The notes below the pieces were generated by a model, which worked only from the letters and a program-made list of their open reading frames with translations, made no database searches and had not been told where the DNA came from. Positions 24,598-44,097 of a DNA stretch of 64,000 nt are shown in pieces. Each line of letters opens with the position of its first letter. Within the stretch, counting starts at the first letter, position 1. The stretch comes from an uncultured bacterium (lineage in GTDB: Bacteria > Verrucomicrobiota > Kiritimatiellia > RFP12 > UBA1067), in assembly GCA_902800055.1 (NCBI GenBank), contig CADCCW010000003.1:3376-67375 (forward strand), in the 5' to 3' direction. A program made the position numbers and the translations under genes.

Positions 24598-25659
24598 CTA
24601 TCCTTGCGTCTTCGCCTCGCCGTCCTTGGGCGGACGGCAGTTGAAGGTGCACATCACCGTGGTGCCGGTGGGGATCTTCGAGGTGATCTCGAAGGTGTCG
24701 GCGACGCGCTTCGAGTTGGCGAGTCCCATGCCCGCGCCGAAGCCCATCGAGCGGATCCAGTCGTTGGCGGTCGAGGTGCCGTCGCGGCAGGCCCACTCGA
24801 CGTCCTTGATGCCGGGGCCGGAGTCCTTGGCGACGATCGTCGCCTTTTCGGTGTCAAGGATGAAGGTGATCGTGCCGCCGACGGAGTGGATGCAGATGTT
24901 GATCTCGAGCTCGTATGCGGCCACCGCCACGCGCCGGATGATCTTCTTGTCGACGCCGGCTTCCTTGAGCATCCGCTTGATCTCGTTGGCGGCCTTGCCG
25001 GCGTTGGTGAGGTCGTTGTGCACGACTGCGAACTGGCGCATGGAGTAGTAGGGGAGCGCGCCTTCGCCTTTCGCAGCGGCCGCCGCGCCCGGCGGCGGCG
25101 TGCGCCCCTCGAGGCGGGCGAGCTCGTCGGTGAGCTCTTTCATGATGGCGCGCATCACGTCGCGCTGGGAGACGATCCCGACGAGATCGCGCTCCTTGTT
25201 CAGCACCGGGAACCGCCCAAAGGTGTAGTTCTCGAAGTACTTGATCGCGAACGCGAGCGGCATGTCCTCCTCGAGCACCACCAGATTCGTCGCCATGTGC
25301 TGCTGGCAGGTGTCGTGGATCCAGCCGCCTTCGAGCGCGCGGATGATGTCGTTCACCGAGACGATGCCGAAGAGCCGCCGGTTTTCGACCACGGGGACGC
25401 CCGAGATGTTGTTGCGCTTCATCAGGTTCTGGGCGAAGCGCAGCGAGTCGGAGCGGATGACCGAGATGATGTCGCGCGCGCGCATGACGTCACGCACCCG
25501 CAGCCGCTGCAGGAGCTCCATGATGACGAGCGGGGAGTCCTCGGCCCCCGGCAGCCCCGAGCCGGAGACGCGCCGCGCGGCGCGTCCGTGGGCCTCCATG
25601 ATCTGGTCGTCGCTGCGGGTGTCGCCGCCGGTGAGGATCGTCGGGCTGTAGTCCATCAT
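24598..25659 (-). CDS. CBS-pair plus anti-sigma-type HATPase
   Basis: A 353-residue cytoplasmic signalling protein. Two CBS domains occupy about 53-112 and 118-175 and would sense adenine nucleotides or similar ligands. A short Pro/Ala linker leads to a GHKL ATPase of the RsbT/anti-sigma type (about 205-340): N-box ELEINICIH, G1 DSGPGI (279-284), G2 GFGAGMGL (306-313). No His-phosphotransfer domain is present, so it is more likely a Ser kinase or switch than a sensor kinase. Its start overlaps the DRTGG gene stop. HATPase, DRTGG and PHP genes are known to cluster around FeFe-hydrogenase operons; none is visible here. Confidence 0.82.
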   Translation of the reverse strand: MMDYSPTILTGGDTRSDDQIMEAHGRAARRVSGSGLPGAEDSPLVIMELLQRLRVRDVMRARDIISVIRSDSLRFAQNLMKRNNISGVPVVENRRLFGIVSVNDIIRALEGGWIHDTCQQHMATNLVVLEEDMPLAFAIKYFENYTFGRFPVLNKERDLVGIVSQRDVMRAIMKELTDELARLEGRTPPPGAAAAAKGEGALPYYSMRQFAVVHNDLTNAGKAANEIKRMLKEAGVDKKIIRRVAVAAYELEINICIHSVGGTITFILDTEKATIVAKDSGPGIKDVEWACRDGTSTANDWIRSMGFGAGMGLANSKRVADTFEITSKIPTGTTVMCTFNCRPPKDGEAKTQG

Positions 25660-25991
25660 TCCTTCGCGAGGAAGTCGTGGACGCGCACGCAGCTTTCGTA
25701 CTTGGAGAGCGGCGAGGAGACGAGCGGGATGCCGAGCGTGTCGGCGGTCTGGCACATCGTCTGCGGCAGGGGCTTGGCGTTGTGCACCACCACGCACATC
25801 GCGCCGACGATGTTCGCCGTCCTGATCGCCTGGTCGGAGGCGAGCGAGGTCAGCAGAAGGATGTCGTCGGCGTCGTTGAGCAGCACGTCGCTCATGAGGT
25901 CGTTGGCCACTACCGCCCCGACTGTCCGCCCGTTGTCACCGCCGGCGACGAGCTTGCCGTCCAGCGTCTTTACAATATCTTCGATGTTCAT
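25656..25991 (-). CDS. DRTGG-domain protein
   Basis: A 111-residue single-domain protein resembling DRTGG domains, a regulatory alpha/beta module also found in phosphotransacetylases and CBS proteins. The core runs from VVANDLMSDVLL to the C-terminal IPLVSSPLSKYES. It is the same length as the DRTGG-like protein at 26770 but clearly diverged from it. It probably partners the CBS-HATPase encoded immediately downstream (overlapping ATGATGA). Leaderless expression is predicted from a -10 only 7 nt away. Confidence 0.72.
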   Translation of the reverse strand: MNIEDIVKTLDGKLVAGGDNGRTVGAVVANDLMSDVLLNDADDILLLTSLASDQAIRTANIVGAMCVVVHNAKPLPQTMCQTADTLGIPLVSSPLSKYESCVRVHDFLAKE

Positions 25992-25998
25992 GGCGGAT

Positions 25999-26007
25999 AT
26001 TATAGCA
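25999..26007 (-). promoter_or_regulatory. extended -10 promoter of the DRTGG-HATPase unit
   Basis: TGCTATAAT on the minus strand, 7 nt from the ATG at 25991. It sits 9 bp from the oppositely oriented -10 at 26017. Confidence 0.75.
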
Positions 26008-26013
26008 TAAATT

Positions 26014-26022
26014 TGGTATAAT
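26014..26022 (+). promoter_or_regulatory. extended -10 promoter of the PHP gene
   Basis: TGGTATAAT with 7 nt to a GTG start at 26030. Both divergent promoters fit in a 38-bp intergenic gap. Confidence 0.75.
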
Positions 26023-26029
26023 TAGCACC

Positions 26030-26755
26030 GTGAAGTTCGACCTGCACATACATTCCTGTCTTTCGCCGTGTGCGAACCTCGAGATGTCGCCATCCGCCAT
26101 CGTCGAGCGAGCCGTCGCCGCGGGCATGGACGGCATTGCCCTGACCGACCACCAGTCAGCCCGCAACACGCCTGCGTTGGCGGAGTGTGCGCGCCGCGCA
26201 GGCCTCGCTTTCCTGCCCGGGCTCGAGGTGCAGACGGCCGAGGAGGTCCACACCGTATGCCTCTTCGACACGGTCGACGCGGCACTGGCGATGACTGACT
26301 GGGTCTACGCCGCCCTGCCCAAGCGCGTCAACGACCCCGACACCTTCGGCGACCAGCCGGTCGTCACCTGGGACGACGATATTGTCGAGCTCGAGTGGCG
26401 CATCCTCGCCATGGGCTGCCGCCGCACCATCCCCGAGGCCGCCGCGAAGGTGCACGAGCTCGGCGGCCTCTACATTGCCGCGCACATTGATCGGCCGAAC
26501 TTCTCGGTGCTGAGCGGCCTCGGCGCCGTGCCCGAGGGATGCTTCGACGCGGTGGAGCTCTCCCGCACTGCCGACGCCGCGCAATGGCTGCCGCGCGCGG
26601 AAGGGCTCGCGGCGGTGCGCTCGTCTGACGCGCACAACCTGGACGACGTCGCGCGGGTCTGGACCGAGGCGGAGTGCGAGTTCTCCGTCGCCGGCCTGCG
26701 CGCGGCGTTCGCGGCCCGGGCGACCAGGCTCTCGCCGCCGCTTACCAGTTTCTGA
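26030..26755 (+). CDS. PHP-domain metal-dependent phosphoesterase
   Basis: A 241-residue phosphoesterase of the polymerase-and-histidinol-phosphatase superfamily. Metal-binding motifs: DLHIHS at 4-9, TDHQS near 40, the Glu of GLEVQT near 66, AAHIDRP near 145 and SDAHNLDD near the C-terminus. Substrate unknown; related proteins sit in hydrogenase-associated signalling clusters. It starts with GTG directly after a -10 (leaderless). The DRTGG-like gene follows 14 nt downstream. Confidence 0.85.
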   Translation: MKFDLHIHSCLSPCANLEMSPSAIVERAVAAGMDGIALTDHQSARNTPALAECARRAGLAFLPGLEVQTAEEVHTVCLFDTVDAALAMTDWVYAALPKRVNDPDTFGDQPVVTWDDDIVELEWRILAMGCRRTIPEAAAKVHELGGLYIAAHIDRPNFSVLSGLGAVPEGCFDAVELSRTADAAQWLPRAEGLAAVRSSDAHNLDDVARVWTEAECEFSVAGLRAAFAARATRLSPPLTSF

Positions 26756-26769
26756 GAAAGGACAACAGG

Positions 26770-27105
26770 ATGAAATTCAGCGAAGTCGTGGACAAGGTAC
26801 ATGGGACCGTGGTGGTGGACAACCCGGAGGCGGAGGTCGACTCGGCCTACTGCGGCGACTTGCTCTCGGACGTGATGGGGCACTGCGGCGACTCGTCGGT
26901 GCTGATCACCGTCCAGAACCACCTCAACGCCATTGCCGTCTGCTCGCTCGCGGGCATCGAAGTGGTGCTGATCTGCCACGGCCGCCCGGTGCCGGACGAC
27001 ATGAAGGCCGCCGCGGAGCGCGAAGAGGTGGGAATAGTGGTGACCGACCTCTCCCAGTTCGCCGCCGCCGTCGCCCTTGCCGAACTCGCGCCTTCGTCGA
27101 AGTAG
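26770..27105 (+). CDS. second DRTGG-like regulatory protein
   Basis: A 111-residue protein with the same length and general layout as the DRTGG protein at 25656-25991: an N-terminal helix, a central AYCGDLLSDVMG segment and a C-terminal alpha/beta half ending after VVTDLSQF. It has a plain SD (AACAGG). It is probably co-transcribed with the PHP gene. The mirror-image arrangement (DRTGG+HATPase on one strand, PHP+DRTGG on the other) suggests a single signalling unit. Confidence 0.68.
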   Translation: MKFSEVVDKVHGTVVVDNPEAEVDSAYCGDLLSDVMGHCGDSSVLITVQNHLNAIAVCSLAGIEVVLICHGRPVPDDMKAAAEREEVGIVVTDLSQFAAAVALAELAPSSK

Positions 27106-27257: not shown

Positions 27258-27302
27258 CTGTAAGTAGCCTTGGCGGTGGGGTTGACTTGCGAGGTCAGAA
27301 TT

Positions 27303-27311
27303 TGGTAATAT
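27303..27311 (+). promoter_or_regulatory. extended -10 promoter of the tRNA-tRNA-recN unit
   Basis: TGGTAATAT, with the -10 at 27306-27311, 12 nt before the tRNA-Ser 5' end. A TTGACT at 27281-27286 is the only -35-like hexamer seen near a promoter in this window, at a 19-bp spacing. Confidence 0.6.
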
Positions 27312-27323
27312 ACGCACTGGTTT

Positions 27324-27415
27324 GGAGAGATGGCAGAGCCTGGTTGAATGCACATGACTCGAAATCATGCATACCCGCAAGGGTATCGGGGGTTCGAATC
27401 CCTCTCTCTCCGCCA
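27324..27415 (+). tRNA. tRNA-Ser(CGA)
   Basis: A 92-nt class II tRNA including encoded CCA. The acceptor stem GGAGAGA pairs with TCTCTCC, and the anticodon loop is CTCGAAA with anticodon CGA, reading UCG serine codons. A long variable arm (ATACCCGCAAGGGTAT) and T-loop GGTTCGAATCC fit tRNA-Ser. Confidence 0.95.
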
Positions 27416-27429
27416 AAGACTTTGCACAC

Positions 27430-27503
27430 GCGGGCGTAATTCAATGGCAGAATAGGAGCTTCCCAAGCTTCTTACGTGGGTTCGATTCCCATCGCCCGCT
27501 CCA
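27430..27503 (+). tRNA. tRNA-Gly(CCC)
   Basis: A 74-nt tRNA with encoded CCA. Acceptor GCGGGCG pairs with CGCCCGC. The anticodon stem is GGAGC/GCTTC with loop TTCCCAA, anticodon CCC (reads GGG glycine). It lies 14 nt after tRNA-Ser and 9 nt before recN. Confidence 0.95.
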
Positions 27504-29126: not shown

Positions 29127-30105
29127 AGTGGTAAAGGGAGTCTTCGGCGAGTCGGACGCGCTGGCCGAGACGCTGGCCGAGACGCTGGGGGAGGGCGGCA
29201 GGGTGCTGCTCGCCGCGGACACGAATGTGGTTTCGCACACCAATGGACTGGGGGCGATGATCGGCCGCTACGTGACCGCGCACGACATCAAGCTCACGGG
29301 GCGTCCGGTGGTGGTTCAGGGCGGCGAGAAGGCCAAGCACGAAGACCTTGCGAACGTGTTTGCCATCGTGGACGCTGGGGTGAAGGCGCATCTTGGCGCC
29401 GGTGACTGCATTCTCGCGCTCGGCGGCGGAACGATGTTTGACCTCGCCGGCTGGGCGGCGGCGCAGCTGGGCGGCGTCAAGGTGGTGAGGATGCCGACCA
29501 CTCCGGCCGCGATGACCGGCGCCGCGTTTTCCGACAATGCCGCGATCGACCGGTGTGGCCACAAGGACGCGGTGAAGGTCGAGTCCTTGCCTGCGGCGGT
29601 GTTGGTTGACGTCGATTTCCTCGGCACGGTGTTGGAAGGGGTATGGCGCGCCGGTGTGGGCGAGATCGCCTGTCTGGCCGCGCAGGACGACAAGTTCCGT
29701 GCCGAGTTCGTCGATTTTGCCCCGCGTTACGCGCGGAGGGACTACGATGCGTTCGCCAAGATGGTCGCGCGCGTGATTGAGCTGCGTCAGAGCCGTCGCG
29801 ACGAGCGCATTGCCGAGCCGATCGCAGCCCGGCTGGAGGAGATGAGCTCGTTCCGGCTGCCGCACGGCTACGCGATTCCGCTTGCGTTGCTGATCGAGAT
29901 GGGCGCGAGAACCGCCAAGGGCGAGATGTCCGCCGAGGCGGCGAAGGAAATCCGCGCCGCGCTCGAGACCTGCGGTTCGCTGGAAGGACTGTACCACTCG
30001 CACCACCTGCTGCTGCGCCGCGAGGCGCTTTTCGACGCGAAGATGGAAGGCAGAGAACACTACATCGCCGCGGTCGACGCGCTTCTCGCCGAAACTTCGC
30101 GGTAG
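29095..30105 (+). CDS. 3-dehydroquinate-synthase-like protein
   Basis: A 336-residue member of the dehydroquinate-synthase-like fold. LALGGGTMFDLAGWAAA (about 102-118) matches the NAD-binding GGG..D.AG.AA motif. Candidate metal ligands are the Glu of GVGEIA, the His of RLPHGYA and the His of LYHSHH. The typical AroB HGEAV sequence is altered, so it may be a specialised sedoheptulose- or DHQ-synthase-like enzyme rather than shikimate-pathway AroB. The ATG at 29095 is kept because the following residues resemble the family N-terminus; a GTG at 29128 would remove the 32-nt overlap with recN. Confidence 0.72.
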   Translation: MRRNLLKYRAEVVKGVFGESDALAETLAETLGEGGRVLLAADTNVVSHTNGLGAMIGRYVTAHDIKLTGRPVVVQGGEKAKHEDLANVFAIVDAGVKAHLGAGDCILALGGGTMFDLAGWAAAQLGGVKVVRMPTTPAAMTGAAFSDNAAIDRCGHKDAVKVESLPAAVLVDVDFLGTVLEGVWRAGVGEIACLAAQDDKFRAEFVDFAPRYARRDYDAFAKMVARVIELRQSRRDERIAEPIAARLEEMSSFRLPHGYAIPLALLIEMGARTAKGEMSAEAAKEIRAALETCGSLEGLYHSHHLLLRREALFDAKMEGREHYIAAVDALLAETSR

Positions 30106-30122
30106 ATGTTGACGCGCAGCGC

Positions 30123-31628
30123 TTACTTCAAGTTGTCCTTGATGTAGCGGCGGTCGGCTTCGGAGAACTTGTGCAGGACCGCCCGGATGCGGCGGCCTTT
30201 CTCCGTCTCAAGAGTGATCGACTTGCCGTCTTTCGCGGTGTCTATCCATTTCGCCTTGATGACACCGCCTTTGTGGTCGTGCCAGAGGCGGAACTGCGGC
30301 TCAGGTTTTGTCGTCGCTGGCGCTGGCACTGCCACTGTCGTTAGCGTTGTATTGGTGGCTGGCACGACGGTTTCAGCTGCCTTTGCAGGGGTGGCATTGG
30401 TCGTCACGGCAACTGGTGCTGCGTTGGTGGCGGGCGTTGGCAGCGGAATTGGCAAGTCATTCTTGCTGAAGGTTGCCAGTTTTGAGATCATGCGCATGCA
30501 GGATGCGCTGATGCATCCTTGAGGTAGATATTCGTTGGCGAAGGCGATGGTGAGCGCGAGCAGCAGCGCGAGCAGGAAAACGCGGCGGACAACTGGCGTG
30601 CCTCTGCGCTTCGCCGATTTGCGGCGCTTGGCGCCGGCGTACTTTTTGCCGCGGCGCTGCTTTGACTCTGCTTCGTGGCGGTCGAGGGCGGCCTCCAGCA
30701 CGCCGATGTCGCGCGAGCGGTCCTCGCCGGTGATGGCAGTGGCGCGGACGACGTCGGCGAGCAGGCGGGAGAACCTGCGCACACGCGACGAGTAGGCGCT
30801 GTCGCCGGAGATGGGGGCGTGGACGGCTTCGCGTCCGTCGGCGTAGGCGTCGAGGTCCTCGCGGAGCGCGGAGAGCTCCTTGACGAGCTCGTCCGCGTCG
30901 CCGTAGGTCTGGCGCGCGAACTCGCGCATGGCCGGCAAGATGCCGTCGGTCTTGAAGCCTTCGGCGGGGCGTCCGTCCGCATCGGTGGCGCTCACGGACG
31001 CAATCTCCACCACGGGAATACCAGGGGCGACGGCGCGGATGCGCGGCCAGTGCGCGGCGAAGACTGCTGCTGGTCCGCCTCCGGCGGCGAGCGCGTCGCG
31101 GTAGCGGTCGGCCTGGGTGAGTCCGATGACGACGCCGGCGCCGGGCAGGCGCTCGCGGATGAACTCGATGAGTCCGCGCGTGACCCAGAGCGCCTCGGTG
31201 CTGCGCTCGAACTCGGCGTCGGCCACGGCCACGTCGTCGCGCAGCAGTTCCTTGAGGCTGACGAGGAGGATGACGAAGTCCGCGGCGGCGAGGTAGTCCA
31301 TCAGCTCCTTTACCGCGGCCTGGCGTCGGGACGAGCCCTCTTCCTCGCGGAAGGCGGCGCGGAAGGTTTCGCCGCCGAACTCGAGCATGGAGATGTCGGC
31401 TAGGGTCTCGCCTTTGGAATCGCGCAGCGACCATTCCAGCGCGATGGTGCGCCCTGGGTTGGTGGCGGGAGGCCATTGGCGGAGCGTGCGCAGCTGGCGG
31501 TGCGCGAAGGCCGCAAAGCGGTTGGAAGCGGAGTTTTCGGGGACGAGATTGGGGTAGAAGTCGGTCAGGGCGGACATGAAGACCGTCTTGCCGCTGGCTT
31601 CGCAGCCGACTATCGCGATTCGCGCCAT
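30123..31628 (-). CDS. membrane-anchored P-loop GTPase with SHD1 domain
   Basis: A 501-residue protein, last gene of the pil-LRR operon. Residues 1-240 form a GTPase-like domain: P-loop GCEASGKT (8-15), a G3-like LEFGGE near 82-87 in which Glu replaces the usual Asp, G4 TQAD (171-174) and a G5-like SVSA (211-214). A basic stretch (about 325-345) precedes a single transmembrane segment at about 349-365. A Pro/Thr/Ala-rich linker follows (about 393-444). The C-terminal 55 residues (RLWHDHKGG to the end) match SHD1, a small module common in PVC proteins. The GTPase would be cytoplasmic and SHD1 periplasmic. The client is unknown; genetic linkage points to the partner, the LRR protein or the pilus machine. 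Confidence 0.75.
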   Translation of the reverse strand: MARIAIVGCEASGKTVFMSALTDFYPNLVPENSASNRFAAFAHRQLRTLRQWPPATNPGRTIALEWSLRDSKGETLADISMLEFGGETFRAAFREEEGSSRRQAAVKELMDYLAAADFVILLVSLKELLRDDVAVADAEFERSTEALWVTRGLIEFIRERLPGAGVVIGLTQADRYRDALAAGGGPAAVFAAHWPRIRAVAPGIPVVEIASVSATDADGRPAEGFKTDGILPAMREFARQTYGDADELVKELSALREDLDAYADGREAVHAPISGDSAYSSRVRRFSRLLADVVRATAITGEDRSRDIGVLEAALDRHEAESKQRRGKKYAGAKRRKSAKRRGTPVVRRVFLLALLLALTIAFANEYLPQGCISASCMRMISKLATFSKNDLPIPLPTPATNAAPVAVTTNATPAKAAETVVPATNTTLTTVAVPAPATTKPEPQFRLWHDHKGGVIKAKWIDTAKDGKSITLETEKGRRIRAVLHKFSEADRRYIKDNLK

Positions 31629-31636
31629 GGTGGTTT

Positions 31637-32206
31637 TCAGGAGTTGCCGCCGGGCTTGTGCCAGGGGGAGGTGGTTACTTTGGCCGCGCCATTGTCCTTC
31701 ACGAGGAAGAGCCAGCGGTCGGCGAGGTGCGCGTGGCGGGCGAGGAGGTCGCCGGCGGAGTGGAGGTCGAAGTCGTCGAGCTCGTTGCGGCAGAGGAGGC
31801 GTCCCGGGGCGTCGATGGCGACCGCGGCGGACTCAGGTCCGGCGTAGGCGATGCTCGTCGGCGGCTCGTGGTTTGGGACGCGGAAGAAATCGTCCGCGAG
31901 CAGCGCGGCGAAGTCGATGTGGGAGGCGTCGGTGCAGGGGACGAAGGCGAAGGCGGCGTAGTCGGCGTCGCGTCCTTCGGAGTCCCAGGCGCGGGCGCGC
32001 ATGAGCGAGAACGCGGCGGCGGTCTTGCCGTCCGAGGCGATGCCAATCGCCGGCGCGCCGTCATCCGCGAACGCGTCGCGTCCGGCGGTGGCGATGCGAT
32101 ATAGCCCGTCCAGAGTCTCCCGTCCGATCCCCGCAGGCTCCGTCGACCAGTCGTAGCCGCGGCCGGCGGTGAACACTGAGACGGGGATGTGGACCGGAGC
32201 TGCCAT
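31637..32206 (-). CDS. GTPase-linked partner protein, GAP1-like?
   Basis: A 189-residue protein without signal peptide or membrane segment. The opening VHIPVSVFTAGRGYDWSTEPAG, together with a following FSLMRARAWDSEGRDADYAAFAFV region, is faintly reminiscent of GTPase-associated (GAP1-like) proteins paired with bacterial conflict-system GTPases; this is a weak resemblance. It lies 9 nt after the LRR gene and 8 nt before the GTPase, so co-translation and physical partnership with the GTPase are plausible. Otherwise unrecognised. Confidence 0.45.
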   Translation of the reverse strand: MAAPVHIPVSVFTAGRGYDWSTEPAGIGRETLDGLYRIATAGRDAFADDGAPAIGIASDGKTAAAFSLMRARAWDSEGRDADYAAFAFVPCTDASHIDFAALLADDFFRVPNHEPPTSIAYAGPESAAVAIDAPGRLLCRNELDDFDLHSAGDLLARHAHLADRWLFLVKDNGAAKVTTSPWHKPGGNS

Positions 32207-32215
32207 CGTCTTAGG

Positions 32216-35200
32216 CTACCAGAGTTGGAAGAGCTGGCACCAGCCGCCGACAAGGTTGGCTTTGGGCGGAATGTACACAAGCGCGGAAGGGCCGCTGAGC
32301 AATTGCGTGGAGCCGGAGACGGAAATTGTGCGGCCGTTGTCGCCTTCGACGCTGCCAGACCATTTCACCTTGCCGTTCGCCGCAAGCTTGAACGTGAATC
32401 CGTCGACTTTGATTGTGGAGTTGGCCGCGATGTCGCCGCGTTTCCAGGTGTTTTGTTCCAGCATGGCGGTCATCCCCGGCAGCTCGAGGCTCAGCTGCCC
32501 GGCGCCGTCGTACGCGGAGAGCGCGAAGGGGACATCGACCGTCTGCCTGTTGACGCGCATGGTCGCGGTGCCGTAGAAGGTGTTCGATTCCTCGTCGAAG
32601 TCGGAGAATCCCTTGGCGGTGTAGCTCAGCTTCAGCGACTTCTTGCCGTCGTCGGACGGAACCATGATCTTGCCCGAGAGCTTGCCGGCGGCGGAGATGG
32701 TCGCAGTGGCGGAGCCGATTTCCGTGGTGCCGTCGAAGCAGACGCCATTGTACTTTCCGCCGACCCAGCTGGGCATGGCAAGCACCTTGATGGCGAACGA
32801 GACGGATTCGTTCAGCTTGTTCTTCTTGTTGGTGACCTTGAGGACGACGGTCTTTGCGCTTTGGGCGCGAGAAGGGGTGCCCTCGATTGCGTAGATGTAC
32901 TTGACGACCTTCCTGCCTTCCTTTACTGCCGTCTTCACCAGTTTTACGCCGGCGGGAAGTCCCTTGGCGGTCACGGTGCTGAGCGAGCCGTCAGGAGCAT
33001 TTCCGACGCTTAGCGGAATTGACAGCTTGATTCCGACATGGGCTTCGACCACGTCGCCTTCCTCAATAGCGGATAGGTTGCCATTGGCGTCCACTAGATA
33101 TGGCCTGACGCCAAATCCGTCGTCGGTGTCATCCAAGGCGTCGTCAGGCTCGTCGACCGGTGGATTGACCACGACCACTGGTGGAGCCTGCACGGTCGTG
33201 TTCTTTGAGGTGAAGTGGCTGTTGTAGAAGGCGAGATTGCTGTAGGAGATGCCAGTGGGAATGCTAATGGGTATTGCGTACGAGATGGTTTTGTCGCTGT
33301 CGCTGGCGGTGTGGTAGAGGCAGACGGAGCCTTTGTAGAATCCAGCCTGGGAGTAGATGTACGAATAGGAGTGGCCGCCGGTCGAGTCGGTGCCAACCGG
33401 AAGTGTGAACGTACCCGTCTTGCGCTCTGTCTCCTTGCCGTCAACTTTTACGACCAGCGTTCCCGTGACGGTTGATCCCTCCGGCATCAGTCCGCAGTCG
33501 GTGAAAGCGTAGTCGGAGATGGCGGTTACGCCGCTGAGAATCATGTCAATGGAAAGCGACGGGGAGAATTCAGTCGCTGTGGTGGAAGTGCTGGTGCCGT
33601 AGGATTTTAGCTCGATGATCTGGTTCGGCTCTGTGGTCATGGTGTCGGGGTCGGTGCTGCCGATAACCTCCACGATTTCCTTTTTTGCGGCGGTTTCCTT
33701 TTCGGTGAAGGTCGCGGCAAAGCTGGTTTTCGCCGGCACCTTGACGAGCGTCCTGCCGTCCTTTGAGTACAGAATGCCGTTGCGTGAGGAGTAGGCCGGG
33801 TTTTTGGCGTCCACGCTGAAGGATTCGAGCGAAGTGCACCCGTTGAATGCGTCTGCGGCGATGGTGGTGATCGACGCGGGAATGTTGATGGCCGTAATCT
33901 CGCTGCAGCCCTCGAACGCGCCGTCGGGGATTGAGGTTATGGTATAGGTATTTCCGTCAATCGTGATTTCGCCTGGCACCGTCACCTCGCCGCTAGTCGA
34001 GGCGGGAATGATCGGCGTTGCGCCGTTGGCTCCCAGTTCGGCCTTGTTGTCGTAGACGGTAACGTCCCAGACAGTTCCGTCGCTGTCGGTATATTTGTCA
34101 GCCTCACCAGGCGCAAGTTCAATTTTTCGGTTGCGCCAGAGGCCTGAGGCTGGAAGGGCGCTGGACGTGGGGTCGCCGTCCCAGCCGAGCGAGCCGTCCA
34201 GGACGGTGATCACAAGCGTTGCCGGCGTGTCGGCGAGGATGCCGTCCGCTGCGGCGGGCGCGTTGCCGAGGAACTTGACGTTTGCGAGCGCCATGCAGTC
34301 CGCGAATGCATCGTCATTGATTGTTGTCGTCGTCTCTGGGACTGTGAGCGTCTCCGATGACATCGGCACTGCGTAGAGAGTCTTGAAGCCTTTGTCGTAG
34401 AGTGCGCCGTCGTCGGAGAGCGAGAAGTGCTGGCTGTCGCTGGATACGGAAACCGTCGCCGCCGGGCCGCAGCCGTAGAGGACATTGCCGTCGATGGACG
34501 AGACCGAGGCGGGAATGGAGACTGCACCGACGTTGGTCCCATTGAATGGATGGCGGCCGATAGTCCTGAGGCTGTTCCCGAGCGTGACGGACGCGAGCGA
34601 GGTGCAGTTGGAGAAAGCGCCGTCTCCGATCCACTCGTAGGTGGCGGGTATTGACACTCCAGTTATGCCACGTTGGTTGGCGATCGCGCCGTTGCCGACG
34701 CCCTTGACGGTCAGTGCGCCGATGGTTGCCGGGAAGGAGAGGGCGGTGATGGCGTTTTCCGAAGACACGGATAAAATCTCGGCAACGCCATCCTCGACGA
34801 CGCGATATTTCCAGACCACGCCAGCGGCATCGGTGTAGGTAAGGGGTTTGTCGCCAGGATCGACGTCGAAGTTTATGGTTCTGTTCTTCCAGGTTGGTTC
34901 GGTGAAGCCCTCGGCTTCGCTTGACGCATAGCTGGTAAGTGCTTCAGGCGTGCCGATGTATAGGTCGTCCGGCGCCGTTGGTGCGTTGCCGGCGTAAGTC
35001 ACCGAGAGCAGAGAGTTGCAACCTGTAAACGCGTCGGAGCCAATTTCGGTCACGGTGGCGGGGATGGTTAGCGCCGAGATGCTGGCGCATTTGGCGAATG
35101 CGTTTGTCCCTATGTATTCAAGTGATTCGGGCAAGAGGACAGACTCAAGGTTTTTGCAGCCGGCAAACGCCTCGTTTCTTATTGCGGTAACAGTTGAGGG

Positions 35201-38200
35201 AACGGCAATGCTTGATTCCTCGAGATTGGCCGGCGCACCGACAAGAATTTTACCTTGTTTGTCATAGAGAATGTTTCCAGCCACAGAGAAATTGGGACAT
35301 GATCCGTCGATTGAGACTGTTGTTAGGAAATCGCATCCGGCAAGTGGGTTGCCGTCTGTCTCCAGAAGAGTATAAGGCAGGGTTATTGTCGATGCTGGCA
35401 CTCCCTCAAATGGGTGTTTGCCGAGTCTCGTTATTCCACTGGGCAATTCGATAACCCCTTTGTCTTGAGTAGTTGTCAAGAATCCCAGCCCGCAGATGTC
35501 AATGATGGCTGTGCAGTTCGAGAATGCAAAATCGCCGATTTCCTGAATAGACGACGGAATGCCAACATAGGTGAGGGAAGTGCAGCCAGAAAATGCAGAG
35601 GAACCGATTGAAGTGACCGTGAACCCTCTGATAATCGTGGGAATCTCCAGAGTATACCGAACGTCGTTGGCGTCTACATCAACATTTGGTACTCCTCTGG
35701 TTGATTTCGGTTCAATGCCAGTAATGGTGACATTGTTGTTGATGATTTTGAATTTCCATGTAATGCCGTTCGCGTCGGTGTAGTCCAGAACAGGCGGATC
35801 TTCTCCGGAGATCACCATGACTTTACGGTCTTTCCAGATCTCTCCGTCTGTCCATCCGTTTGTTGTGAGCGCATAGCTGACGAGTGGGTCTGGAGTACCG
35901 GCGTAGATGTTGTCTGCTGCGTTGGGCTTGGTGCTGTTGTAGAAGATTGATTCGAGATGGGGCGTGGATTCCGGCGCGGAGAGCCCGGGCCAGATGCCGG
36001 CGACATTGAACGCGCCATCGCCGATTGTTGTTACGGAGGCTGGGATGTTGAGATAAGTCAGACGGTGGCAGCCGAAGAACGCATCCGCGGCGATGTTCGT
36101 CACGGTGTTTGGAATCGTGACCGTTCCCTCTGCGCGCGTCGGACAGACGTAAAGCTTCGTCATGTCGCGGTTGTAGAGGACACCGTCGTCGGAATACTTG
36201 AAATGTGAGCTGTCGTCGATGGAGATTGTCGAAGTGAAAAGCGTTCCTGCCGAAATGTTGCCTCCCATGTCGAGGAGTGAGTCGGGAACTTTGATTTCGC
36301 GGATAATTGTGTTGACAAAGGCGCGGGCTCCAATGTAGCGAACGCCGTATGGGATATCAATGCTGGCAAGCGAGGTGCAGTTGGAGAACGCATTGTCGCC
36401 GATCCACTCGTAAGTGTCGGGAATTGAGATTGATGTGATGCCGCGCAGGTTGGCGAGTGCCCCGTCGCCGACCCCCTTGACGATATAGCCCCCAAGAGTT
36501 TGTGGAAGTGAGATGGATAGGATTGGCGAATTAGGATCGTCGCTAACCACCGCAGGATTTCCGTCATCACGGTAGATCTCGGCAACATCGTCGTTTACGC
36601 GGAAGTACCATGTAATGGCTCCGTCGTCGTAATGGAGGATAGTGCTGTCGGGCGAGGTGGATATCACAACAATTGGCCGATCCTCCCAGAGGACAGGTGA
36701 GAAGCCTGTTGCAGTGTCCAACACAAAGCTTGTGAGGTTGGTTTGTGTGCCGGCATAGAGTGTGTTGTCCGTTGCCGGTGCATCGCCGTCATACGTAATC
36801 TTAAGAAGAGCCGTGCAGTTTGTGAATGGGGAATGCCCAATTTCTATCACGGAGGCGGGGATGGTTAGCGCCGATATGCCGGTGCACTTGGTGAATGCGT
36901 TTGTTCCAATGTATTCAAGAGAGTCGGGCAGGAGGATCGACCTAAGGTTTTCGCAACCATACAGCGCCTCGGAATTGATTTTTCGCGCTGAGTTCAGGAA
37001 GTGGATTGAAGAGCTGCTGTAGTTTGCCGGGACTGCGACGACTTCAGTTGACTGCTTGTTGTAGATAACGTTGTCGGATGAAACAAACTTAGGGTTGTTT
37101 TCGTCGACTTCAACAGCGGCGATGAATGGCATCCCGGCTAATGGATTGCCTTCGATTTCGATTGTTGTGCGAGGAATAATCACCGCGACTGACTTTAGAT
37201 CTTCAAATGGATGGTATCCAAGCGTAGTTATGTTGTCGGGGATTTCAATTGTAGCATCCTCGCCAAAAGAATCAGTTCCGCGAATTCTGCTAATGGCCGC
37301 GCAGCCTTTGAAGGCATAATCTCCGATTGTAGTAATCGATGGCGGAATGTCGATTCGAGAGAGGTTCTTGCAGTTTAAAAACGCGTAGTCGCCGATTTTG
37401 GTCACGACATAGCCGTTAATTGATGAGGGCAATAATAGGTTATCCCCACGAGTTACCGAACTGCGATTGCTGTCGGTGTATGTCGGGTCAATTACAGCCT
37501 CTCCATCATTGTAAAGCTCGGCTTCGCCATTGACGATTCTGTAATACCAGGTGAGACCATAGCTGTCTTTGAATTTCAGCACCGGCGGATTTGTGGCGGT
37601 GATTTTTGTGACCTTGCGACCTTTCCATGGATCGATCCAGTCTTCGGAAAACACATAGCTGACTAGGCCAGTTGGGGCTCCGTCGTAGATGTCGTCGGCT
37701 GCGTCAGGAACTGACCCGTTATAGAACACGGACAGAAGTTTTGGCGTGGATTCTGGCGCGGAGAGCCCTGGCCAGATGCCGGCGACATTGAATGCGCCCT
37801 CGCCGATCGTTGTGACGGAGGCGGGGATATTGAGGTAGGTCAGGCGATGGCAGCCGAAGAATGCGTCTGTGCAGATGTTGGTAAGCGTTTCCGGGAGAAC
37901 AATCGTCCCTTCTGCGCGTGTTGGGCAGGCGTAGAGCTTGGTCATGTCGCGGTTGTAGAGGACGCCGTCATCGAAGTAGACGAAGTGCGAGCTGTCGCCG
38001 ATGTTGAGCGACATGGCGAAGATTGAACCAGCGGAGATGTTGCCGCGCATGTCAAGGAGGGAGTCGGGCACGGCGAGCTCTCGAACGATTGTGTTGAGAA
38101 ACACCCGCGCGCCAATGTAGCGGATGCCATAGGTAAGGGTCACGTTCTCAAGTGAAGTGCAGTTTCTGAACGCCTCGTCGCCAATTTCAAGTATGGTGTT

Positions 38201-41200
38201 GGGAACAGTAGCCGAAAGCAGTGCCGGGTTGTCCGCAATGGCGCCCGCCGCAATGTTCGTGACCGTATACAGATTGCCGTCGACGAATACGATGTTCTTG
38301 ATGGTGACATCCCCGACTGCGTTTTCGAGCTTTTTGAGTGTGGCTGTCAGAGGCGTGCTGTTTGTGTGCAGCTCATAAGTCCAAAACATTTCATAGTCGA
38401 TGTCCCCGACGGTATTTGTTTCGGAGATTATGATATTTGCGATGTCAATGCCGCCGACGATGACTATCGGGCGTCCCTTCCAGGTGCCGCTTGTGAAGCC
38501 CGCGTTCTCCTTGGCGTAACTTGTCATCGCCGCGGGCGTGTCGGCGAATATCGTATCCGCCGCAGCCGGCGCGTCGCCGAGGAACGTGGTCTTCTTCAGG
38601 ATCGCGCATCCGGCGAACGCGTCGCCGGCAATCGAGGTTACCGTCGCCGGGACAGTGATTTCCGCCGAGCGCGGCGGAACTGCGAGAAGTGTGGTCTTCG
38701 AGTGGTCGTAGAGGCAGCCGGCCTCGTCGGCCGAGAAGTTGATGTTTCCTTCGTCGACTGTGAAGCCGGTGAAGCGCGAACATCCGGCTGCGGGATTGCC
38801 GTCGATCGCCTCGACGTAGGCCGGGACCGCGAGCGTCGGCACCTTTGTTCCCGCGAAAGGCTCCACGCCGATGGTTTCGATCGTGGACGGCAGTGTCACG
38901 GCGGTGACATACCTGCAGCCGTATAGGGCTCGGTCGCCGAGTCCGACGACGGTGTATTGCTTGCCGCTGCCGGAGTCGGTGACCTGGGCCGGGACGTCGA
39001 CTGCGCCGATGTGGTTCGTGTCGAGAAGGGCGCTGTCGCCGCCGTTGTAGAGGATGGCGACGTCGCCGTTGAGAATCCACTTCCAGGTGCCGTCGGTGTT
39101 GGTGTCGACGACGACCTCCGCGGGGATGATGACTATTTGGCGTCCCTTCCAGGTGCCGCTTGTGAAGCCCGCGTTCTCCTTGGCGTAACTTGTCATCGCG
39201 GCGGGCGTGTCGGCGAAGACGTCGTCCGCCGCGGTCGGCGCGTTGCCGAGGAAGGTCGCCTTCTTGAGCCTGATGCACCCGGCGAAGCACTCGTCGGCGA
39301 GCTCGGCGACGGTCGCCGGGAGCTCGATCTCCTCAGCGGTCATCGGGTAGGCGAAGAGGGTGGTGAAGTCCTTGTCGTAGAGCGCGCCATCGGCGGACAC
39401 CGCGAAGCGCGGGTTGTCGTCGCCGATGGAGAGCGACACCGACGGGTCGCAGCCGTAGAGGATGTTGCCGTTGATCGAGGAGACGGTGTCGGGAATGGCG
39501 ATGGTCTCGATTGCGGTGCCGGCAAAGGGGTGCCGCCCGATGCTGCGCAGGCCGTGGTTGAGCTTCACGTCCATGAGGACGTTGCAGTCGGCGAACGCCT
39601 CGTTGCCGAGGTTGGTGATGGCGTTGGGGATCTCAACGGAGAGAAGTCCGGTTGAGTTCGCGAAGAGGCGGTCCCCAAGTGACTTTACGGTGAGCGTGCC
39701 GAGAGAGCTGATGAAATCTGACGGCACGGTGTAGTTGCCGATCGGCTTGGGCGAGATCTCGAGAATTTCGACGCCTCTTTGGGCGAGAACCTTTAGCGTG
39801 TGGGCGTACTGCGTTGTCCCATTGGTCGTTATGCAGACGAAGATGTCACCTTCCTTAAGTTCTGCCTCGGCCGAGACGTCGAGGTTCGCGATGCTGCGCC
39901 CGTACTCGTCGTCGGACGGCCATTTGCCTGATGTGGGGAGGGCTGTAGAACTGGGGTCGCCGTTCCAGCCCTTTGTTCCTTGGGCAACGTAGATCTGCAG
40001 CCCTACCGGCGCGCCGCGGAAGAGCTGCGGGTCCTTGCCTGGAGCATTGCCGGAGAACCCGATGAACTCCAGCGACCCGCAGCCCTCGAAGAGCCCTGCT
40101 CCCTCAAGCGCGGTGACAGACGTCGGAAATACGAGAGATGCGAGCCTCGGCATATCGCTGAACGCGCATTCTCCGACGCTGGCAATATTGCTGGGCAGCA
40201 GCAGCGCGCGCAGGCGGAAGCAGCCGTCAAATGCCTCGGGTCCGATTCGCTCCGTAGTCGTGGCGATAGAGGCAGACTCTTTCCTCGCAGGGCAGCCGAC
40301 GAGCGTGCGGACGTCCTTGTCGTAGAGAATGCCGTTGACGACGGTATAGTAGGAGTTGTCGAGCGAAATCGAGACGGTGAGGAGCGTGTCGCATCTTGCA
40401 AGCGGATTTCCGGCCAGAGAGCGGAGCGAATCCGGCAGGGCAAGCGCCGTGATCGAAGAGCCGACGAAGGGGCGATAGCCGATTTCCTTTGTTCCTGTCG
40501 GAAGCGTAACGGAGCTTAGGCTTGAGCAGTTCGCGAAGGCGTAGTCGCCGATTCTGCGGAGTGTCTTGGGCATCTCGACTTCCGAGATTCCCGAGCATCC
40601 GCTGAAGGCGTAGTCGCCGATGAGTGTGACTGGGTAGCCGCCAAGGGAGGACGGGACGACGAGCTTGCCGTCCGAAGTCCATTCGAAGGTTGCCGGGTTG
40701 TAGGTGTATGTTTCCGAAGTCGAAGTCGGGATCGCGGCGATGCCGCCGTTGTAGATCTCTGCTTCGCCGTTGATGACGCGATAGAACCAGGTCACGTTTC
40801 CGGCCTTGTCGGAGACGATTCCGGACGGCTGCTCCGCGGCGGATTCGACTACATTGAAGACGTCCCATGGAGCGGCGTCCCAGCCAGTCGTGCCTGGTTT
40901 CTTGTAGAAGCAGAGGTTGGCGTTGGCGCCGTCGATGATGGAGGCGTCGGCGGCCGGGGCATTTCCTTCGAACGAAACGGAAGTCAGGCGCGTGCAGCCG
41001 AGAAACGCCTGTGCGCCAATGGTCTCGACGGTGGCGGGGACGGCCAGCGCGGCGAGACGGTGGCAGCTTGCGAATGCCTTGATGCCAATTTCTTTCAGCG
41101 TTGCGGGAAACTGGATGGTTTCGATGCGCGGCGGGCAGGCGAGAAGTCGCGTGTGGTCCTTGTCGTAGAGTGCGCCGGCGGATGATGCTAACCAGGGGTT

Positions 41201-41611
41201 GTTTTCGTCGACAGAAATCTGTGAAAGGATTGTGCAACCGGTGAACAGTCCTGTCCCGAGCGTCTCGACCGTTTCGGGGATGGAGATGGATGTGATGCCG
41301 ATCTGGTTTGCGAATGTGCCATCGGCGATTTTCTTGACGATGAGAGGAGTTCCGTCTGAACAGACGAGCGACAGCGGGACGGAAATGTCCCCGATGAGGT
41401 ACTTGCCATCTGTCGTTGTGTCGTTTTTTATCGTGACGCCGGTGATGACGGCGTAGGTTATGCCGTCGCTGGTCTCCCGTTCGAATTCCCAGACGAGGTT
41501 GAATCCTGGTGCCGGGGTGTCGGCTTGTCCATAGTTCACATTGGAAGTTTCCTCGGCCAGGACTGGGATAGCGAGGATTGCGGCGAGAAAGCAGGCGATG
41601 AATTTTTCCAT
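32216..41611 (-). CDS. giant secreted BspA-like leucine-rich-repeat protein
   Basis: A 3131-residue exported protein. Signal peptide at residues 1-19. About nine modules of LRR_5/BspA-type repeats follow, with the recurring pattern IPxxVxxIGxxAFxGCxxLxxV. Each module closes with a GNAPxAxDxIYxGTPxxLxSY.....W(K/R)xR segment and several open with an ITWYYRIVNGEAEIYxDG phrase. Near residues 2850-2945 is an Ig-like putative-Ig stretch, and the C-terminal 180 residues form a beta-rich domain (GKYNGVCFDG, GKLSGKI). No sortase, PEP-CTERM or T9SS tail is evident. It is encoded 18 nt after the secretin, SD AAAGGAG, implying it may be a client of that machine. BspA-like proteins usually mediate adhesion. 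Confidence 0.85.
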   Translation of the reverse strand: MEKFIACFLAAILAIPVLAEETSNVNYGQADTPAPGFNLVWEFERETSDGITYAVITGVTIKNDTTTDGKYLIGDISVPLSLVCSDGTPLIVKKIADGTFANQIGITSISIPETVETLGTGLFTGCTILSQISVDENNPWLASSAGALYDKDHTRLLACPPRIETIQFPATLKEIGIKAFASCHRLAALAVPATVETIGAQAFLGCTRLTSVSFEGNAPAADASIIDGANANLCFYKKPGTTGWDAAPWDVFNVVESAAEQPSGIVSDKAGNVTWFYRVINGEAEIYNGGIAAIPTSTSETYTYNPATFEWTSDGKLVVPSSLGGYPVTLIGDYAFSGCSGISEVEMPKTLRRIGDYAFANCSSLSSVTLPTGTKEIGYRPFVGSSITALALPDSLRSLAGNPLARCDTLLTVSISLDNSYYTVVNGILYDKDVRTLVGCPARKESASIATTTERIGPEAFDGCFRLRALLLPSNIASVGECAFSDMPRLASLVFPTSVTALEGAGLFEGCGSLEFIGFSGNAPGKDPQLFRGAPVGLQIYVAQGTKGWNGDPSSTALPTSGKWPSDDEYGRSIANLDVSAEAELKEGDIFVCITTNGTTQYAHTLKVLAQRGVEILEISPKPIGNYTVPSDFISSLGTLTVKSLGDRLFANSTGLLSVEIPNAITNLGNEAFADCNVLMDVKLNHGLRSIGRHPFAGTAIETIAIPDTVSSINGNILYGCDPSVSLSIGDDNPRFAVSADGALYDKDFTTLFAYPMTAEEIELPATVAELADECFAGCIRLKKATFLGNAPTAADDVFADTPAAMTSYAKENAGFTSGTWKGRQIVIIPAEVVVDTNTDGTWKWILNGDVAILYNGGDSALLDTNHIGAVDVPAQVTDSGSGKQYTVVGLGDRALYGCRYVTAVTLPSTIETIGVEPFAGTKVPTLAVPAYVEAIDGNPAAGCSRFTGFTVDEGNINFSADEAGCLYDHSKTTLLAVPPRSAEITVPATVTSIAGDAFAGCAILKKTTFLGDAPAAADTIFADTPAAMTSYAKENAGFTSGTWKGRPIVIVGGIDIANIIISETNTVGDIDYEMFWTYELHTNSTPLTATLKKLENAVGDVTIKNIVFVDGNLYTVTNIAAGAIADNPALLSATVPNTILEIGDEAFRNCTSLENVTLTYGIRYIGARVFLNTIVRELAVPDSLLDMRGNISAGSIFAMSLNIGDSSHFVYFDDGVLYNRDMTKLYACPTRAEGTIVLPETLTNICTDAFFGCHRLTYLNIPASVTTIGEGAFNVAGIWPGLSAPESTPKLLSVFYNGSVPDAADDIYDGAPTGLVSYVFSEDWIDPWKGRKVTKITATNPPVLKFKDSYGLTWYYRIVNGEAELYNDGEAVIDPTYTDSNRSSVTRGDNLLLPSSINGYVVTKIGDYAFLNCKNLSRIDIPPSITTIGDYAFKGCAAISRIRGTDSFGEDATIEIPDNITTLGYHPFEDLKSVAVIIPRTTIEIEGNPLAGMPFIAAVEVDENNPKFVSSDNVIYNKQSTEVVAVPANYSSSSIHFLNSARKINSEALYGCENLRSILLPDSLEYIGTNAFTKCTGISALTIPASVIEIGHSPFTNCTALLKITYDGDAPATDNTLYAGTQTNLTSFVLDTATGFSPVLWEDRPIVVISTSPDSTILHYDDGAITWYFRVNDDVAEIYRDDGNPAVVSDDPNSPILSISLPQTLGGYIVKGVGDGALANLRGITSISIPDTYEWIGDNAFSNCTSLASIDIPYGVRYIGARAFVNTIIREIKVPDSLLDMGGNISAGTLFTSTISIDDSSHFKYSDDGVLYNRDMTKLYVCPTRAEGTVTIPNTVTNIAADAFFGCHRLTYLNIPASVTTIGDGAFNVAGIWPGLSAPESTPHLESIFYNSTKPNAADNIYAGTPDPLVSYALTTNGWTDGEIWKDRKVMVISGEDPPVLDYTDANGITWKFKIINNNVTITGIEPKSTRGVPNVDVDANDVRYTLEIPTIIRGFTVTSIGSSAFSGCTSLTYVGIPSSIQEIGDFAFSNCTAIIDICGLGFLTTTQDKGVIELPSGITRLGKHPFEGVPASTITLPYTLLETDGNPLAGCDFLTTVSIDGSCPNFSVAGNILYDKQGKILVGAPANLEESSIAVPSTVTAIRNEAFAGCKNLESVLLPESLEYIGTNAFAKCASISALTIPATVTEIGSDAFTGCNSLLSVTYAGNAPTAPDDLYIGTPEALTSYASSEAEGFTEPTWKNRTINFDVDPGDKPLTYTDAAGVVWKYRVVEDGVAEILSVSSENAITALSFPATIGALTVKGVGNGAIANQRGITGVSIPATYEWIGDGAFSNCTSLASVTLGNSLRTIGRHPFNGTNVGAVSIPASVSSIDGNVLYGCGPAATVSVSSDSQHFSLSDDGALYDKGFKTLYAVPMSSETLTVPETTTTINDDAFADCMALANVKFLGNAPAAADGILADTPATLVITVLDGSLGWDGDPTSSALPASGLWRNRKIELAPGEADKYTDSDGTVWDVTVYDNKAELGANGATPIIPASTSGEVTVPGEITIDGNTYTITSIPDGAFEGCSEITAINIPASITTIAADAFNGCTSLESFSVDAKNPAYSSRNGILYSKDGRTLVKVPAKTSFAATFTEKETAAKKEIVEVIGSTDPDTMTTEPNQIIELKSYGTSTSTTATEFSPSLSIDMILSGVTAISDYAFTDCGLMPEGSTVTGTLVVKVDGKETERKTGTFTLPVGTDSTGGHSYSYIYSQAGFYKGSVCLYHTASDSDKTISYAIPISIPTGISYSNLAFYNSHFTSKNTTVQAPPVVVVNPPVDEPDDALDDTDDGFGVRPYLVDANGNLSAIEEGDVVEAHVGIKLSIPLSVGNAPDGSLSTVTAKGLPAGVKLVKTAVKEGRKVVKYIYAIEGTPSRAQSAKTVVLKVTNKKNKLNESVSFAIKVLAMPSWVGGKYNGVCFDGTTEIGSATATISAAGKLSGKIMVPSDDGKKSLKLSYTAKGFSDFDEESNTFYGTATMRVNRQTVDVPFALSAYDGAGQLSLELPGMTAMLEQNTWKRGDIAANSTIKVDGFTFKLAANGKVKWSGSVEGDNGRTISVSGSTQLLSGPSALVYIPPKANLVGGWCQLFQLW
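35961..36230. repeat. LRR-gene internal duplication A, copy 1
   Basis: A block strongly similar at DNA level to 37743-38012, offset 1782 bp (594 codons, in frame). It covers the SAPESTPxLxS through DGVLYNRDMTKLY segment of two modules. Confidence 0.8.
37743..38012. repeat. LRR-gene internal duplication A, copy 2
   Basis: Partner of 35961-36230. Long exact runs are interrupted mainly at codon third positions, suggesting an older duplication than pair B. Confidence 0.8.
38461..38548. repeat. LRR-gene internal duplication B, copy 1
   Basis: Matches 39130-39217 with about three differences; offset 669 bp (223 codons). Encodes the DTPAAMTSYAKENAGFTSG module end. Confidence 0.88.
39130..39217. 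repeat. LRR-gene internal duplication B, copy 2
   Basis: Partner of 38461-38548. The near identity indicates recent duplication or gene conversion within the repeat array. Confidence 0.88.
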
Positions 41612-41629
41612 TGCTTAACTCCTTTCTGC

Positions 41630-43612: not shown

Positions 43613-44097
43613 TTGGTTTCTCCTTTGTCCTCGGAGGGTTCTTCAAGTTCACGCATTCTGATTCGCTGCAGCCTGAGCGTGCCGGTCTCGGTGAGGCCCT
43701 TGACGCGCCAGGTGAAGCGCAGTCCGTCGACGTTGGCCGAGACGAGGTCGCCGTCGGCGTAGATGTTGCCGTTGATGGTGACGGCCTGCCGCGAGTTGGC
43801 GCCGGAGCCGACGCGGAGGGTGCCGCCGATCTTCAGCGACTTGCGCGCGGCGATCCAGAGGCGGCCTTCGCCCTTGTCGTTGGACGCGGCCTCGGCGGCC
43901 TCGGCTGCGGCGATCGCCTCGGGGTTGACGCTGGTTTCGGCGTCCTTGCGCGTCTCCTCCTCGGTGGGCGCGCTCACTTCGAAACGCGGATCGGCGGAGA
44001 TCGGTTCGCGCTCGCCGTTGTAGCCGACGGGCCAGAAGGGGTTGCGCAGGGGAATGGTCGCCGCCAGGGCGGCCGCAATCAGAAGGGGAGTCGTCAT
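43609..44097 (-). CDS. PilP/GspC-like periplasmic protein
   Basis: A 162-residue protein with an N-terminal signal/anchor segment (1-20), an acidic Glu/Ala-rich middle and a small beta domain (about 85-150) with the pattern AVTINGNIYADGDLVSAN, as in pilotin-like PilP or GspB/GspC homology regions. Its place between pilO and the secretin, with 4-nt overlaps on both sides, supports a role coupling the inner-membrane platform to the secretin. Similarity is weak; the position carries most of the inference. Confidence 0.6.
   Translation of the reverse strand: MTTPLLIAAALAATIPLRNPFWPVGYNGEREPISADPRFEVSAPTEEETRKDAETSVNPEAIAAAEAAEAASNDKGEGRLWIAARKSLKIGGTLRVGSGANSRQAVTINGNIYADGDLVSANVDGLRFTWRVKGLTETGTLRLQRIRMRELEEPSEDKGETK

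Follow-up and report, generated by a model that had tools for sequence, protein, structure and literature searches.

Back-to-back extended -10 promoters, probably leaderless, in a 38-bp gap between two halves of a gene module in Kiritimatiellia

How are two divergent genes started when almost nothing lies between them? In the 64,000-nt stretch of DNA from an uncultured member of the Kiritimatiellia that we analysed (the window), only 38 bp (25992-26029) separate the ATG of a minus-strand gene (25991-25989) from the GTG of a plus-strand gene (26030-26032), and both start codons are common to relatives, tblastn alignments starting at residue 1. On the plus strand the gap reads GGCGGAT-ATTATA-GCA-TAAATT-TGG-TATAAT-TAGCACC (Table 1). 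Both hexamers are perfect TATAAT with a TGN triplet directly 5' (TGC and TGG), as in extended -10 promoters, and each lies 7 nt from its start codon, within the 6-10 nt that characterizes leaderless genes. The first-pass annotation had described two opposed elements at this distance from the start codons, and the sequence confirms them; the 9 bp that it placed between them fits neither the hexamers, which are 12 bp apart (26005-26016), nor the TG-extended elements, which are 6 bp apart. The 38-bp gap contains no Shine-Dalgarno sequence, the start codons being preceded by TCCGCC-ATG and AGCACC-GTG, and a consensus scan that demanded a -35 listed none for these two promoters. Since the distance from a -10 element to the transcription start is about 7 bp (PMC12825309, in its accessible text), transcription would begin on or immediately 5' of each start codon, and both mRNAs would therefore be leaderless, with predicted divergent starts ~39 bp apart.

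The genes on either side appear to belong to one module. The minus-strand DRTGG-like gene itself has no Pfam match at 1e-3, and its name was not taken from Pfam; it is 24-33% alike to relatives' copies of the DRTGG-like gene downstream of PHP. The window's own copy of that downstream gene (26770-27105) has a Shine-Dalgarno-like AAAGGA ahead of it. For the PHP protein, the best named relatives come from Kiritimatiellae and Verrucomicrobia genomes, many of them from ruminant and horse guts. We also note that in Acidaminobacter, a distant relative (locus L100, 1919-5280), the PHP gene sits among HATPase genes together with a gene for an iron-hydrogenase large-subunit-type protein, a neighbourhood that hints, as a lead only, at a link between the DRTGG/CBS-HATPase/PHP module and hydrogenase regulation.

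Table 1. Features in and around the divergent gap (window coordinates)
Feature	Position	Strand	Basis
CBS-pair + HATPase (anti-sigma-type) protein	24598..25659	-	Pfam CBS 1e-25, HATPase_c_2 5.7e-9; start overlaps DRTGG-like stop
DRTGG-like protein, 111 aa, first of minus-strand unit	25656..25991	-	ORF
7-nt discriminator, with transcription predicted to start at or beside ATG	25992..25998	-	sequence; genome-wide start-codon distance peak 6-10 nt
Extended -10 TGC-TATAAT, for DRTGG-like gene	25999..26007	-	sequence; -10 6-10 nt from start in 18/18 divergent loci
Spacer between TG-extended elements, 6 bp	26008..26013	.	sequence
Extended -10 TGG-TATAAT, for PHP gene	26014..26022	+	sequence; present in 17/17 divergent, 0/21 co-directional relatives
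7-nt discriminator, with transcription predicted to start at or beside GTG	26023..26029	+	sequence; distance peak of 7 nt for GTG starts
PHP-domain protein, 241 aa, GTG start	26030..26755	+	Pfam PHP 1.3e-9; start kept in relatives
Second DRTGG-like protein, PHP transcription unit	26770..27105	+	Pfam DRTGG 1.2e-4, 22.3 bits, under 25.2 cut-off

Relatives that carry the same genes in different arrangements show when the PHP-side element is present. Of 64 Kiritimatiellae-like loci, 62 were usable (L090 and L094, which are without a PHP start, and 16 distant matches, L095-L110, were excluded): 17 have the divergent DRTGG-like/PHP arrangement, 21 have PHP directly and co-directionally behind the second DRTGG-like gene, and 24 have other contexts. 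An extended -10 element with at most one hexamer mismatch lies 5-11 nt before PHP in all 17 divergent loci, in none of the 21 co-directional ones and in 13 of the 24 others. On the opposite side, the DRTGG-like gene has a -10 (TATAAT or TATACT) at 6-10 nt in each of the 17 divergent relatives, the TG being missing in one of them, L032. Counting the window, both elements are present in 18 of 18 divergent loci. The -10 element is found where a promoter is required, and selection maintains both elements.

The same signal recurs throughout the host genome, a draft of 2.29 Mb with about 65% GC. The window holds 15 copies of TGNTATAAT, where 0.2 are expected from composition, and the whole genome has 185 TGNTATAAT-N4-9-ATG sites, the reversed control giving 0. 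In a 464-kb sample made up of 20 stretches and the window, there are 67 copies of TGNTATAAT, 39 of which precede by 6-11 nt (mode 7) the first start codon in an open reading frame no shorter than 60 codons; permuted words in the same sample gave 4 sites for TGNTAATAT (2 in the 6-11 nt range), 5 for TGNATATTA (1), 2 for GTNTATAAT (0) and 0 for TGNTAAATT. Judged by eye, a Shine-Dalgarno-like stretch often comes after copies far from a start codon, and not after near ones. The element takes the form TTTGGTATAATAC, and the genome's other sites show T-rich sequence around -16 to -18; in a larger set of 265 distinct sites of the lineage, which were partly pattern-selected, the distance peaks at 6-10 nt for ATG and at 7 nt for GTG. 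In 11 of these 265 sites TTGA occurs at an 18-bp spacer, where it peaks, so some promoters of the lineage do have a -35. An 18-bp spacer is also seen in the window at 27282-27311, where TTGACT-N18-TAATAT with TG lies upstream of a tRNA pair (27324-27500); two tRNAs are the only Rfam matches in the window. A further feature of the window is a strong, sustained GC skew of 0.11-0.17 over 30001-44000, part of which has a GC content below that of the rest of the window.

How widely this start is used was estimated from crude gene calls in the sample, a set of 267 genes with a neighbour from which small genes were missed. A strict or near -10 lies 6-10 nt before a plausible start in 38 of the 267, and two permuted hexamers together reach 13 of 267; by context, the count is 17 of 78 for divergent genes and 4 of 90 for genes at most 25 nt behind a same-strand gene. 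Most genes are so not of the -10-adjacent kind. Among 194 genomes of the phylum that were scanned, those of the same genus are dense in sites (185, 118 and 145 per genome), two genomes from other genera of the family have 95 and 3, and seven from one other family of the order have 24 to 45; the remaining genomes are mostly near the reversed control, and exceptions such as G117 and G192 also have high controls. The -10-adjacent start thus characterizes one lineage and does not extend to the phylum at large. At several predicted leaderless promoters of this genome (L124 minus, L125 plus, L128 plus and L111 minus), CCGCGGC-type repeats, e.g. GCCGCGGCAC-TTTCCGCGGCGG, lie directly upstream of TTTGGTATAATACAC, as though a dispersed repeat or regulator site carried the promoter along.

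We consider it probable, at roughly 85%, that the gap holds two independent back-to-back leaderless promoters, which use a start mode common in the genus to express one module jointly. Each would be a separate sigma-70-type extended -10 promoter at which sigma touches the TG and the TATAAT, leaving a -35 dispensable, and each would start transcription at, or 1 nt before, its start codon. The left unit (DRTGG-like/CBS-HATPase) and the right unit (PHP/DRTGG-like) would then both begin as leaderless mRNAs and be translated as such; leaderless transcripts had already been proposed in the first-pass annotation, and with a predicted leader of 0-1 nt they are the most likely outcome, the genome-wide and comparative evidence agreeing. 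With footprints that would overlap fully, the two initiation events should compete in principle, and at ordinary promoter strength both genes would be co-expressed as parts of one module that is unidirectional in relatives. In our view the pair is an economical means of starting the two halves of that module.

The back-to-back layout is not unique to this gap. The 61 genomes of the genus that were scanned contain 247 ATTATANCA-N0-30-TGNTATAAT pairs, with 0 in the reversed control, and convergent pairs of equal size number 12 in 59 genomes. Among 51 distinct pairs that were fetched, start codons lie at 5-11 nt on both sides in 15 and on one side in 23 (at least one side in 38); the other 13 have no start codon at that distance on either side, so back-to-back -10 elements are not always leaderless. 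What two independent promoters do not account for is the clustering of the spacing between hexamers, at 11-13, 21-22 and 34-36 bp. The matches listed gave 155 pairs (75 of the 247, all 49 of another search and 31 further), which were similarity-reduced to 127, and among these the separation is 11-13 bp in 20, 14-19 bp in 4, 20-22 bp in 26 (16 pairs being at exactly 21 bp in this listed set) and 33-36 bp in 45. When the same data were smoothed to serve as a null, 5 of 5000 trials produced a bin reaching 16, and 0 of 5000 an equally deep trough. These clusters are suggestive, the pairs being those among the matches listed and their relatedness having been partly removed. An extended-range search, viewed by eye among the matches listed, has an apparent peak at 35-36 bp and further excess near 46-48 and 58-60 bp. 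Strict helical periodicity of 10.5 bp was not the best fit, the best period over the whole range being about 11.7. At a separation of 21 bp the opposing ATTATANCA could be aligned as a -35 (T, C and A of TTGACA, 18-bp spacer), a numerical fit only, which we do not claim; the enrichment of the T, C and A letters lends it no support, because the loci were chosen for that pattern.

The divergent orthologues give a smaller view of the same spacing. Their hexamer separations are 10, 12, 21, 34, 46 and 51 bp. Seven loci are at exactly 21 bp, namely L032 and six that carry TG on each side; the middle 15 bp of the seven have a mean identity of only 45%, the distance from the DRTGG-side hexamer to the ATG ranges from 7 to 10 among them, and the PHP protein tree, whose deep forks are weak, does not group them as one clade. 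The separation of 10 bp is found both in the L081 group and in L089, which are two clades, and the 22-bp core is near-identical in them. This divergent core, ATTATANCATATTTGGTAGAAT, is shared by L081, L084, L083, L086 and L089 across distant parts of the PHP tree, through either ancestral retention or exchange. We raise, tentatively and as something we would put at well short of even odds, the idea that back-to-back leaderless promoters form a geometrically tuned unit, with separations near 12, 21 and 35 bp preferred and 14-19 bp avoided; the opposing element might be kept off the -35 contact region of sigma, or held in a set helical phase. If so, polymerase geometry would by itself couple divergent pairs, and no regulator would be involved.

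The size of a polymerase footprint would exclude two polymerases together on 38 bp, and the earlier statement that both cannot occupy the site at once is supported as an inference, by way of overlapping footprints. A stronger form of this conflict would be a toggle, in which the firing of one promoter excludes the other and a cell expresses the DRTGG-like/CBS unit or the PHP/DRTGG unit but not both. Hexamers just 12 bp apart here, and 10-21 bp apart in 15 of the 18 divergent loci, make footprint overlap usual, and bidirectional promoters of E. coli interfere once one side is strongly activated; at basal activity, however, those promoters do not compete, competition setting in on substantial activation, and noise is lower when they are constrained (PMC12825309, in its accessible text). 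The same genes are moreover unidirectional in 21 relatives, which favours co-expression, the separations of 34, 46 and 51 bp in 3 of the 18 loci loosen the overlap, and no feedback element was seen. We therefore regard a toggle as unlikely, and the mutually exclusive firing predicted in the first-pass annotation as unsupported, given the co-directional order of these same-module genes and the basal non-competition in E. coli.

It is very improbable that the near-palindrome ATTATAGCA-N6-TGGTATAAT is the operator of a dimeric regulator and not two promoters. Its arms match at 8 of 9 positions and the genus shows clustered spacings, which speaks for an operator, but the distance between the arms runs from 10 to 51 bp in orthologues while each arm stays 6-10 nt from a start codon, and many other genes have just one such arm in front of them. 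We rejected a single operator on the ground that arm spacing varies and arm-to-codon distance hardly does, the arms thus being anchored to genes. That TATAAT-like words arose by chance in a short intergenic gap of a GC-rich genome, the gap being AT-rich within 65% GC, is scarcely credible against 15 copies in the window for 0.2 expected, the conservation in orthologues, the 0 of 21 in the co-directional control and reversed-pattern controls of 0. Lambda PRM/PR and some restriction-modification control regions have divergent promoters of which one or both give a leaderless transcript, with repressor operators at the promoters. The gap resembles these in being divergent and, by prediction, leaderless; unlike them, it has no evident operator. 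The earlier view that the gap leaves no room for operators is too strong, as one could overlap the -10 elements.

Two independent leaderless promoters would find their nearest parallels in known systems of two kinds. Deinococcus-Thermus and Actinobacteria are well-known for leaderless genes that have a -10 adjoining the ORF (PMC12340547, PMC3160421, in their accessible text), and the genes described here are like them in having a -10 close to the start codon, little or no predicted 5' leader and a dispensable -35. They differ in that the element is TG-extended and a near-perfect TTTGGTATAAT in place of TANNNT, in that the lineage is Kiritimatiellae, which the accessible text of those papers does not mention, and in that direct experiments back the Deinococcus genes and the Kiritimatiellae case is predicted from sequence. 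In E. coli, bidirectional promoters have starts most often 18, and also 10 and 23, bp apart (PMC12825309, in the portion available). The gap is like them in its opposed sigma-70 promoters, in the mutual exclusion of polymerase binding (here expected from the footprint) and in lying between functionally linked genes, as those promoters often do; it is unlike them in that they use one shared pseudo-symmetrical sequence, whereas here there are separate hexamers 12 bp apart with predicted leaderless starts ~39 bp apart, a distance outside the 10, 18 or 23 bp of that class. One paper, in its accessible part, puts Kiritimatiellae among anti-SD types. We found no report in the literature of a leaderless start in Verrucomicrobia, Kiritimatiellae or Kiritimatiellota, which is weak evidence of absence with subscription papers mostly uncovered, and within the same coverage no report of a preferred spacing for separate back-to-back leaderless promoters.

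The gap is a solid and conserved instance of what the lineage does habitually, and the interest lies in the lineage-wide pattern and its spacing, not in this gap. An uncultured gut lineage in which leaderless starts from a near-perfect extended -10 are common would lie outside the groups for which the literature covered documents such starts. The signal, TTTGGTATAATAC followed by a start codon 6-10 nt past the hexamer, would improve the annotation of start codons and operons in the lineage. The recurrent compact divergent pairs amount to many natural variants of one geometry, in which the relation between promoter closeness and interference could be tested with reporters.
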